Shown here piece by piece: positions 4,225-10,725 of a stretch of DNA of 46,533 bases (position 1 is the stretch's first letter; each line of letters opens with the position of its first letter). A program made the translations under genes and the position numbers. Where the stretch lies: assembly GCF_029233945.1 (NCBI RefSeq), contig NZ_JARGOQ010000025.1, positions 1-46,533 on the forward strand, read 5' to 3'. The stretch comes from Sneathiella sp. (GTDB lineage Bacteria; Pseudomonadota; Alphaproteobacteria; Sneathiellales; Sneathiellaceae). The notes beneath the pieces were generated by a model. The model searched no databases, had not been told where the DNA came from, and worked only from the letters and a program-made list of their open reading frames with translations.

Positions 4225-5037
4225 ATGAAGATGCTGGAAGAGAAAACATTCGTTGGGGGTATATCGACGCCCGATAACAGTCGACATTTCGTGACGTCTT
4301 TGGCGCGTGGTCTGGAGATTTTACAGGCTTTTCGCCCGGGTGAAGGCCCGCTTGGAAATAATGAAATTGCCAAAAGAACGCGACTGCCGAGGTCTACTGT
4401 TTCTCGCTTGACGAGTACTTTGCTGCAGCTTGGGTTCCTGACTTATCGGAAGAGTACCGGCAAATATGAGCCCTCGCCAGCGGTTCTTTCTCTCGGGTAT
4501 ACCTATCTGGCCAACAACAAACTCCGATTGTTATCTCGCCCGTTGATGCATGATCTCGCAAAGCAGGTTGGTCTGGGCGTTGCCCTCGCGACACGCGTAC
4601 AGCTGAACATGATGTATGTCGAAACGGTTCGTGGTGCCGATGAAAGTACGCTTCGGCTGGAGGTCGGATCCTTTCTGCCAATCGCGACGACGGCGGTTGG
4701 CCGGGCCTTCCTTTGCAAGCTGCCGGACGGGGAGAAAAATTTTCTCCTGGATCATGTCCGGCGAAAAGCTGCCGATGAGTGGCCTAGGATAAAAAAAGGG
4801 ATTGATCAGGCGGAAAAGGACTATGCGGATTTCGGATATTGCCTTTCTATAGGTGACTGGCACCCCAGCTTTCATGCGGTTGGTGCCGCGGCTCTTGACA
4901 ATTCAACCGGCGATATCGTTGCCTTTAATTGCGGAGGGTCCACTTATCTGGTAACAGAAGCAACCTTGCGGGAAGAAGTTGGCCCCCGTCTCGTCGGCTT
5001 GGCGAGAAGTGTTGAGGTAATGTGCGGGCTAGACTAA
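4225..5037 (+). CDS. IclR-family transcriptional regulator
   Basis: A 270-residue regulator with an N-terminal winged helix-turn-helix (about 24-90; 'RGLEILQAF', 'LGNNEIAKRTRLPRSTVSRLT') and a C-terminal effector-binding domain (about 100-265, ending with 'LVGLARSVEVMCG'). IclR proteins bind a small aromatic or organic-acid effector and repress or activate nearby catabolic genes; PcaR/PcaU-type members are of this size. The start is uncertain: GTG at 4198 and ATG at 4231 are also possible, and none has a good ribosome-binding site. It is divergent from the TRAP operon and 41 bp upstream of the acyl-CoA dehydrogenase gene, so it probably regulates both. Confidence 0.9.
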   Translation: MKMLEEKTFVGGISTPDNSRHFVTSLARGLEILQAFRPGEGPLGNNEIAKRTRLPRSTVSRLTSTLLQLGFLTYRKSTGKYEPSPAVLSLGYTYLANNKLRLLSRPLMHDLAKQVGLGVALATRVQLNMMYVETVRGADESTLRLEVGSFLPIATTAVGRAFLCKLPDGEKNFLLDHVRRKAADEWPRIKKGIDQAEKDYADFGYCLSIGDWHPSFHAVGAAALDNSTGDIVAFNCGGSTYLVTEATLREEVGPRLVGLARSVEVMCGLD

Positions 5038-5078
5038 AATCAAACCTAAATAATAACAAAAAAGTAGAAGGATGGAAG

Positions 5079-6233
5079 ATGGCTCTGGATGCCGAGACAT
5101 TTGAATTAATGAAAGATGCAGTCGCCCGATTCGTGCGCGAAAAGCTCGTTCCCGCTGAAGACACGGTGGAAGAGACAAACGACGTGCCCGAAGAAATTAT
5201 TCAGGAAATGCGGGAATTGGGTCTTTTCGGCCTCTCAATCCCGGAAGAATATGGCGGGTTGGGCCTGAGCATGGCACAGGAATGCCAGATCATACATGAA
5301 CTTTGCAAGGCCTCGCTGGCGTTTCGTTCGGTAATCGGGACGACGGTTGGTATCGGCAGTCAGGGTCTTGTCATGACGGGCACAGATGAACAAAAGAAAC
5401 AGTATCTGCCGCGGCTGGCCTCCGGTGAGATCATGTCTTCCTTCTGCCTGACCGAGCCGGAAGCAGGGTCTGATGCCGCTTCCTTGCGGACCGTCGCGGT
5501 CCGGGACGGCGATGATTATGTGCTGAACGGGACAAAGCGCTATATCACCAACGCACTGCGCGCAGGTATGCTGACGGTTATGGCCCGCACCGACTCATCC
5601 AAAAAAGGCGCGTCGGGTATATCTGCCTTTCTTGTTGATCCCGCCACGCCGGGCGTCACGATTGCCAAAGCAGACGAAAAAATGGGCCAGCGAGGCACAA
5701 AAACCAGTGATGTTATTTTTGAAGATGCCCGCATACCTGCCTCCGCCTTGATGGGCGACGTAGAGGGGAAGGGTTTCTATACTGCGATGAAGGTGCTGGA
5801 CCGCGGCCGGCTGCATTTGAGTTCGGTCTCGACCGGTATTTCGGAGCGGATTTTGGAAGAAGCTCTTAACTATGCGGCCGAGCGCAAGCAATTCGGGACC
5901 GTTATCGGTGAATTCCAGCTCGTGCAAGCGCTTCTTGCTGATAGTCAGACGGAACTTTTCGCCAGCAAGGCAATGACATTGGATGCCGCGCAGAAATATG
6001 ATAATAATGAAGATATCTCAATGCTGGCGGCCTGCTGCAAGATGTTCACAACGGAAGCAGCCGGAAAAATTGCGGACCGGGCGGTGCAGATCCACGGTGG
6101 CGCAGGCTATATGGCGGAGTACAAAGTCGAACGCTTTTACCGGGATGTCCGGCTGCTGCGTCTTTACGAAGGAACGACGCAAATTCAGCAGCTTGTCATC
6201 GCACGCAATATGCTGAAATCGCATACGAACTAA
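5079..6233 (+). CDS. acyl-CoA dehydrogenase family protein
   Basis: FAD-dependent dehydrogenase that introduces an alpha,beta double bond into an acyl-CoA ester. It has 384 residues, normal for the short/medium-chain class. The signature 'FCLTEPEAGSDAAS' lies near 122-135, 'QIHGGAGYM' near the C-terminus, and the catalytic-base position is Glu in 'LYEGTTQIQ' at about 364. The start at 5079 is chosen over an in-frame ATG at 5022 that overlaps iclR, because AGAAGGATGGAAG precedes it and the N-terminus then matches the family. It lies between iclR and a class II aldolase gene on the same strand. The acyl substrate is not evident. Confidence 0.93.
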   Translation: MALDAETFELMKDAVARFVREKLVPAEDTVEETNDVPEEIIQEMRELGLFGLSIPEEYGGLGLSMAQECQIIHELCKASLAFRSVIGTTVGIGSQGLVMTGTDEQKKQYLPRLASGEIMSSFCLTEPEAGSDAASLRTVAVRDGDDYVLNGTKRYITNALRAGMLTVMARTDSSKKGASGISAFLVDPATPGVTIAKADEKMGQRGTKTSDVIFEDARIPASALMGDVEGKGFYTAMKVLDRGRLHLSSVSTGISERILEEALNYAAERKQFGTVIGEFQLVQALLADSQTELFASKAMTLDAAQKYDNNEDISMLAACCKMFTTEAAGKIADRAVQIHGGAGYMAEYKVERFYRDVRLLRLYEGTTQIQQLVIARNMLKSHTN

Positions 6234-9527: not shown

Positions 9528-9618
9528 TATGTTACCCTTGTGTCTTGTCCATGCAAAATTATTCTGCTAGCTGACGACCGTGATTTTATTTCCCCGCTTA
9601 AGGGGGTTGGAGTTTTCC

Positions 9619-10503
9619 ATGTTTATTCAGACCTTGCCGCATGAAAATGAAGACAGGATGAAATTCTTGCCGGGCCGACAGGTTCTGGCGGAAGGCTCCA
9701 TCCTGTTCGAAAATGAGAAAGAGGGGCGGGAACGCTCCCCGCTCGCGGCGCGCCTGTTTGATATCCCGGGAGTCCGCTCGGTGGAACTCGGAGAGGACTA
9801 TGTCACAATCGTCAAACGGACGGATGCCGAACATAAAACCCTATGGATACAGCTTAAACCAATGGTCCTCGCCGCAATCATGGATCATTATATGAGCGGC
9901 ATGCCGGTATTGAACGGGGAACCGCAATCAGCCAGAGCAAGCTATTCAGAAGAAGAACAGAAAATCGTTGATTCCATTGTCGAGCTGATCGACACGCGGG
10001 TACAGCCGCAACTGCGGGAGGATGGGGGCGACGTGGCGTTTAAGTCTTTCGATCCTGCCGATGGCGTTGTTGTGTTGGAAATGGACAGTTCAGGTCTGTC
10101 CACGCCAGCCTTTGGGACGCAAATCAAAATCGAAAACACGCTCAAGCATTTTGTGCCCGAGATTCATCGGGTTCGCTTTGAACGCATGGTCGAAGAAGTG
10201 GCCGAAGATACGAGTGATCGGCCCGGTCTGAAAAGTGATGAAGCGGACCAAATCCGCGTCCTTCTTGAAACGCGGATCAACCCCGCAATCGCGGCGCATG
10301 GCGGTTACATCACATTGATCGATATAAAGGACAATACAGCCTTTGTTGAGATGGCTGGCGGCTGTCAGGGATGCGGCATGGCCGATGCAACGCTGAAACA
10401 GGGCGTGGAAGTGGAAATTAAATCCGCAGTGCCGGTAATTGAACGGGTTCTGGATGTGACCGATCACGCAGGCGGCGCAAATCCCTATTACGTTGGATAT
10501 TGA
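9619..10503 (+). CDS. NifU/Nfu Fe-S cluster scaffold with two NifU domains, the first degenerate
   Basis: A 294-residue protein with three parts. Residues 1-90 are an Nfu N-terminal domain ('MFIQTLPHENEDRMKFLPGR', 'LFDIPGVRSV'). Residues 112-185 are a first NifU domain ('RVQPQLREDGGDVAF', 'LKHFVPEIHRV') in which the CSGCP motif is replaced by a Cys-free stretch (156-167). Residues 207-290 are a second NifU domain with the CxxC intact (Cys249, Cys252 in 'GGCQGCGMADATLK'), closest in type to the end of E. coli NfuA. These two are the only cysteines. Nfu proteins hand 4Fe-4S clusters to targets such as lipoate synthase and aconitase; here one cysteine pair per chain suggests a dimer-bridging cluster. 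The start at 9619 has AAGGGGG upstream. Confidence 0.9.
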   Translation: MFIQTLPHENEDRMKFLPGRQVLAEGSILFENEKEGRERSPLAARLFDIPGVRSVELGEDYVTIVKRTDAEHKTLWIQLKPMVLAAIMDHYMSGMPVLNGEPQSARASYSEEEQKIVDSIVELIDTRVQPQLREDGGDVAFKSFDPADGVVVLEMDSSGLSTPAFGTQIKIENTLKHFVPEIHRVRFERMVEEVAEDTSDRPGLKSDEADQIRVLLETRINPAIAAHGGYITLIDIKDNTAFVEMAGGCQGCGMADATLKQGVEVEIKSAVPVIERVLDVTDHAGGANPYYVGY

Positions 10504-10512
10504 CCGCCGCGC

Positions 10513-10725
10513 CTACTCAACCGCGTCTATGGCTTTGATCACGAAACCGCGGTCCGCGCTGTATTTGCGGCGCATTTTTTCCCATGCCTGTTCAAGGCTT
10601 TCCGCATAAATGTCTAAATAATGCGTTTCGGCCCAGCTATCTGAGAGCTCCTTGTGATGCTCTCCCTCCTGGAGTGCGGTAAGGACTTCTTCATTAAAAA
10701 TAGCTGCTTCAAATTTCAGCTGCAT
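10513..10725 (-). CDS. small protein of unknown function (70 aa)
   Basis: A 70-residue acidic protein (MQLKFEAAIFNEE..., ...FVIKAIDAVE) with no recognised domain. The pattern of aromatic and charged residues, such as 'WAETHYLDIYAESLEQAWEKMRRKY', predicts helices and a small globular fold. A plausible GAGACCGGAA lies just upstream. It is convergent with the nfu gene, with only 9 bp between the stops. Probably real, but its function is not evident. Confidence 0.6.
   Translation of the reverse strand: MQLKFEAAIFNEEVLTALQEGEHHKELSDSWAETHYLDIYAESLEQAWEKMRRKYSADRGFVIKAIDAVE

Follow-up and report, generated by a model that had tools for sequence, protein, structure and literature searches.

Why would a bacterium retain a NifU domain that has lost its cysteines within a protein that carries a second, intact one? 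This question is raised by a gene in a 46,533-nucleotide stretch of DNA from the marine bacterium Sneathiella, the whole of which is called the window here. An open reading frame at 9619..10503 (+) encodes a protein of 294 amino acids, termed copy A, in which an Nfu_N domain is followed by a ligand-free ("dead") and then by a ligand-bearing ("live") NifU domain. A preliminary description had proposed such a tandem behind an Nfu N-terminal domain and suggested a profile search of the three parts, and this search recovers all of them. Pfam matches Nfu_N (PF08712) at residues 3-94 with an E value of 4e-20 (domain at residues 1-95, 9619..9903, +) and NifU in two stretches, with an E value of 1e-32 for the whole protein. 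In a genome search, each NifU domain separately exceeds the Pfam cut-off of 27 bits for PF01106, the first with 42.7 bits and the second with 75.4 bits. Likewise, the N-terminal domain of human NFU1 aligns to residues 1-99 (E 2e-14), and residues 105-186 align to the C-terminal domain of human and mouse NFU1 (E 2e-12).

The reading frame starts with ATG, and GGAG is present just 5′ of it within a Shine-Dalgarno-like TTGGAG (9607..9612, +). A candidate promoter-like element, comprising CTTGTC, a spacer and TTCTGCTAGCTGAC, is located at 9544..9575 (+). In an alignment of 22 orthologues from the genus, conservation upstream of copy A is highest in blocks of CTTG and of TTTGATAGCTGAC-like sequence, and this pattern suggests that the element may act as a promoter. 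Its block GCTAGCTGAC resembles half of a type 1 IscR site of E. coli, and no second half of that site was seen at the 9544-9575 block. The gap from copy A to the OsmC gene contains a 70-amino-acid reading frame (10513-10725, -) that matches no Pfam or NCBIfam family.

The first NifU domain (residues 114-187; 9958..10179, +) is cysteine-free. It lacks the CSGCP motif and retains the REDGGDVAF (133-141) and LKHFVPEI (175-182) blocks, as had been noted earlier, and when the ordinary M-x-G-S-C-x-G-C-P segment is aligned with M155 and P163, G159 and T162 stand at the cysteine positions. The concern that this region might not align to NifU at all fails against its 42.7-bit match. Together with its position in a domain tree (see below) and a predicted fold resembling the mouse NifU-like domain 1veh (Z 9.8), this match supports its identity as a genuine NifU domain from which the ligands have been lost.

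The second NifU domain (residues 209-277; 10243..10449, +) carries the cluster-ligand motif CQGC (10363..10374, +), whose C249 and C252 are indeed the only cysteines of the protein. Nfu-type Fe-S carriers are recognized by a PF01106 domain with a CxxC pair, and the second domain has both. It is followed by a C-terminal tail containing HAGGANPYY (residues 278-294; 10450..10500, +), which is nearly invariant in 51 fusions and is common also to NfuA-type relatives of other phyla. The NfuA model TIGR03341 matches best over residues 209-291, scoring 104 bits against a full-length cut-off of 269.

The two NifU domains have different ancestries. In a tree built on 80 columns from 92 domain sequences, obtained by a quick search and containing several long branches so that only its main split is used, first domains group among ordinary alphaproteobacterial Nfu domains. 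Second domains group with NfuA-type domains of other phyla and with E. coli NfuA. The split between these groups has SH-aLRT values of 97 and 98. A separate phylogeny of each NifU domain had been suggested at the outset, and the result, with 98 SH-aLRT and the TIGR03341 match, upholds the early impression that the second domain resembles the end of E. coli NfuA. Because the domains occupy two separate positions, the tandem appears not to have arisen by internal duplication. Rather, an NfuA-type domain looks to have been added onto a complete Nfu of the NFU1 type.

The cysteine-free state of the first domain is common to all Sneathiella copy A orthologues, and an origin by chance or frameshift was rejected since the state is kept in all of them. 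Among about 107 distinct fusions, none has a CxxC in the first domain, and all have one in the second except for a single record with unread bases. The routes of ligand loss are diverse. Copy A combines substitution with a two-residue deletion, and its paralogue copy B has a seven-residue deletion where the ligands were; in a predicted model of copy B, the order of helices and strands is unchanged and the loop is removed. Fusions at three other loci (L084, L095 and L137) exhibit further patterns, unlike those of copies A and B.

Loss by several different routes is what might be seen if the first domain were a dispensable relic that has drifted slowly since the second domain took over, and one protein (L171, below) does without a dead domain entirely. 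However, sequence comparisons reveal strong purifying selection in both paralogues. For 22 copy A genes, in which synonymous sites are near-saturated (pS about 0.72-0.83), pN/pS amounts to 0.24 in Nfu_N, 0.21 in the dead and 0.11 in the live NifU domain, and 0.41-0.46 in the linkers. Constraint within the dead domain of copy A is strongest exactly at the former ligand site, where residues 155-175 (10081..10143, +), with the sequence MDSSGLSTPAFGTQIKIENTL, stand in for the CxxCP loop and run into the following helix. Here pN/pS falls to 0.067, and 19 of the 21 residues are invariant in the genus. Of 274 residue windows, only some in the second NifU domain are more conserved than this stretch, which ranks 10th, and shuffling rarely produces conserved positions so clustered within the dead domain (p 0.0001). 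Copy B even has a dead domain under tighter constraint than its live one (pN/pS 0.16 versus 0.22). The dead domain is thus strongly conserved and not decaying, and it is kept in the other alphaproteobacterial fusions examined, making a drifting relic very unlikely.

Near-invariance of MDSSGLSTPAFGTQIKIENTL in the genus could also be explained if this loop, as rebuilt in copy A, had acquired another activity or a binding site for some other ligand, metal or cofactor. However, the loop proper contains neither Cys nor His and only one acidic residue, copy B simply deleted the loop, and relatives of copy A (L087, L093, L127 and L138) have only the pattern P-x-F...[IV][KR][IV]ENTL in common. We therefore consider this explanation very unlikely.

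A third alternative is that the dead domain serves in dimerization or spacing, pairing with itself or packing on the live domain without recognizing any partner, and thereby holds two live domains together or shields the cluster. The cluster of ordinary Nfu proteins is located at a homodimer interface (PMC8593673), the conserved stretch of the dead domain comprises the former cluster loop and helix, and dead and live domains remain paired even when the N-terminal partner is a glutaredoxin or a PLP enzyme. An AlphaFold2 model built with 51 sequences shows each of the three domains with confidence (pLDDT 86), with loose linkers between them (pTM 0.44). The Nfu_N domain of this model matches the human NFU1 N-terminal domain 2ltm (Z 16.9, rmsd 1.3), and the top Foldseek match is Arabidopsis CnfU (PDB 2z51), a mirror-image tandem. 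Matches to GMP synthetase, a ribosomal protein and cation transporters (Z near 7-8) were set aside as reflecting only a common alpha/beta arrangement. No contact or arrangement between domains is predicted with confidence in the copy A model, although with a pTM of 0.44 a role in dimerization would be compatible with it. Moreover, NfuA-type proteins of other phyla have no second NifU domain, and the retained part of the dead domain contains the helices by which NFU1 docks on ISCU, which favors recognition. Overall, dimerization or spacing appears an unlikely sole function.

Instead, we regard as probable a scheme in which an NfuA-type domain was fused onto the housekeeping Nfu and assumed cluster carrying, while the old domain became a docking module. 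A NifU domain of NfuA type with an HAxGxNPYY tail would have been joined to the C-terminus of an alphaproteobacterial Nfu (Nfu_N plus NifU, as in NFU1), and cluster carrying would have moved to the added domain. By analogy with known Nfu proteins, a [4Fe-4S] cluster is presumably held between two subunits by their C249/C252 pairs. The original NifU domain would have lost its ligands by several routes and been retained as a ligand-free module that binds the donor scaffold, apo-clients or both through its two helices and rebuilt loop. For copy A, we infer the cluster type, the dimer of second domains and the docking role from such comparisons. Precedents for docking exist, as human NFU1 docks on ISCU via two helices of its NifU domain and receives a cluster (PMC7261492), and the ligand-free A-type domain of E. 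coli NfuA targets that protein to apo-proteins (PMC8593673). In Sneathiella the SufB/D genes have a SufU-like and an A-type carrier gene as neighbors, which makes SUF the likely donor.

Under this scheme the fused protein would have replaced the ordinary Nfu, and in Sneathiella it is present as two paralogues, A and B. The source genome, which is 99.7% complete, yields exactly four NifU-domain matches, which belong to two proteins, both of tandem design, and a profile search detects no ordinary Nfu in it. Copy B is located on another contig and has 273 amino acids when counted from a conserved MFIQ start. The nearest named genomes are those of Sneathiella species (S. sedimenti, 91%; S. glossodoripedis, 72%), and all matches in a plasmid search are below 60% identity. 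The fusion is present in all 24 Sneathiella-level genomes, nearly all of which have both A and B (with G010 fragmentary and a third copy in G019), and an ordinary Nfu was not found in any of the 24.

The distribution of the fusion extends well beyond this genus. Of 386 alphaproteobacterial genomes sampled evenly across the class, 29 have it, representing 15 of about 167 families and including Oceanibacterium hippocampi, Ferruginivarius sediminum and Rhodovibrio sodomensis. The idea that the fusion is private to the source genome was therefore discarded. No ordinary CxGCP Nfu was found in 27 of these 29 genomes, and the other two (G084 and G360) retain one. The pattern P-x-F...[IV][KR][IV]ENTL, typical of the A-type subfamily, occurs in Oceanibacterium (L138) and at L093, L087/L139 and L127, and two genomes (G084 and G236) have an A-type copy beside a B-type copy. 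The split between A and B therefore looks older than the genus.

Gene context differs among carriers of the fusion. In Sneathiella, copy A is surrounded by genes for an acyl-CoA dehydrogenase, a class II aldolase, an MFS protein, a cyclase, OsmC and a CDP-alcohol transferase, and the A locus of Oceanibacterium has many of these neighbors in common with it. As none is a known Fe-S protein, the neighbors were dismissed as clients. Elsewhere, many carriers have genes for rSAM_CUAEP and an ATP-grasp ligase immediately downstream of the fusion gene. The former matches NF040546 with 629 bits against a cut-off of 500 and is related to the arsinothricin enzyme ArsL. It occurs in 11 of the 386 survey genomes, all 11 of which carry the fusion, and the genes are adjacent in seven. 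The probability of this co-occurrence, with phylogeny ignored, is 5.6e-14 by genomes and 1.8e-7 by families.

The family model that matched in those 11 genomes finds no rSAM_CUAEP in any of the 24 Sneathiella genomes, so a link of Sneathiella copy A to the rSAM/ATP-grasp cassette was rejected. The ATP-grasp gene is also absent from these 24 genomes, except for G019. There, the third fusion copy is followed by an ATP-grasp gene without rSAM_CUAEP (contig C24; L071, L150), a locus that is perhaps a remnant of the cassette.

The same NifU domain is found near rSAM_CUAEP and ATP-grasp genes in Gemmatimonadetes, Chloroflexi, Latescibacterota, NC10 and others, and the cassette recurs across many phyla (at L131, L134, L136, L142, L146, L172, L177, L191 and other loci). 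What precedes the NifU domain in those phyla is mostly a degenerate A-type domain, as it is in NfuA; in metagenome-assembled genomes (MAGs) of Planctomycetota and Elusimicrobia, it is Nfu_N alone. The place taken by Nfu_N and the dead NifU domain in Alphaproteobacteria is thus filled by a degenerate A-type domain in these cassettes, which bears out the parallel with NfuA drawn in the preliminary description.

Several unusual fusions were encountered. In a MAG labeled Methyloligella (L171, about 1048-1680), Nfu_N is directly joined to an NfuA-type NifU domain without a dead NifU domain, and the gene is located between those for rSAM_CUAEP and ATP-grasp; the dead domain is thus not needed in every such protein. 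A protein from another MAG (L168, 4392-5534) combines a Grx4-type monothiol glutaredoxin (TIGR00365 over cut-off, CGFS) with dead and NfuA-type NifU domains; its gene lies just before an ATP-grasp gene, and the same genome has an ordinary single Nfu. At three loci (L103, G310:C164; L104, G286:C47; L109, G198:C10), both NifU domains follow a PLP enzyme of Cys/Met metabolism (PF01053, cystathionine gamma-synthase/lyase-like) without Nfu_N, and these genomes also hold the Nfu_N fusion. The glutaredoxin and PLP enzyme fusions indicate that the NifU pair behaves as expected of a portable unit. In one deltaproteobacterial protein (L189, about 4700-5700), rhodanese-like, degenerate A-type and NifU domains are combined, with an ATP-grasp gene nearby.

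From these contexts we infer that the carrier domain is part of the cassette, became joined to the housekeeping Nfu within Alphaproteobacteria and outlives the cassette in Sneathiella. A broader history can be offered tentatively, at somewhat less than even odds. NPYY-tailed NfuA-type domains with interchangeable modules (degenerate A-type, Nfu_N, Nfu_N plus dead NifU, or Grx4 plus dead NifU) may have begun as dedicated suppliers of clusters to the rSAM_CUAEP/ATP-grasp pathway. In Alphaproteobacteria the pathway's carrier would have captured the housekeeping Nfu and assumed its cell-wide function, and in Sneathiella it would have outlived the pathway as the sole, duplicated Nfu. For relatives that have them, the linked rSAM_CUAEP and ATP-grasp genes offer a concrete candidate client and a functional handle on the rSAM_CUAEP family.

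Carriers of the Nfu/NfuA kind are known. The preliminary description allowed that this arrangement might prove common and already characterized; it is indeed widespread in some alphaproteobacterial families, and a literature search, with subscription papers outside its scope, found no earlier description of the Nfu_N/dead NifU/NifU order, although a prior mention is possible. The idea that dead carrier domains are recognition modules becomes testable with copies A and B, since the dead loop differs between these two natural paralogues and phenotypes in Sneathiella would not be masked by an ordinary Nfu.

Among known systems, alphaproteobacterial Nfu and mitochondrial NFU1 (NFU4-5 type) are of the same family as Nfu_N and the first NifU domain of copy A by sequence, tree and fold. 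There the NifU domain behind Nfu_N bears CxGCP, whereas in copy A the cysteines are lost and an NfuA-type domain is added. In the rSAM_CUAEP cassette (NF040546) the fusion gene lies directly 5′ of the rSAM_CUAEP and ATP-grasp genes, an association that Sneathiella, having no rSAM gene, does not exhibit. E. coli NfuA likewise joins a ligand-free N-terminal module to one CxxC NifU domain of the same type, and NfuA-type relatives in other phyla occupy the same gene cassette as the fusions. However, the ligand-free part is an A-type domain in NfuA and Nfu_N plus NifU in copy A, which has no PF01521 match. Plant plastid NFU1-3 (CnfU) also have two tandem NifU domains, one of them cysteine-free, but in the reverse order, with the live domain first and the degenerate domain second (PMC3721309), and copy A is a fusion of different domains. 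After the A-type domain of NfuA and the second domain of plant NFU1-3, the first NifU domain of this protein represents a third carrier domain that has been kept without its ligands.
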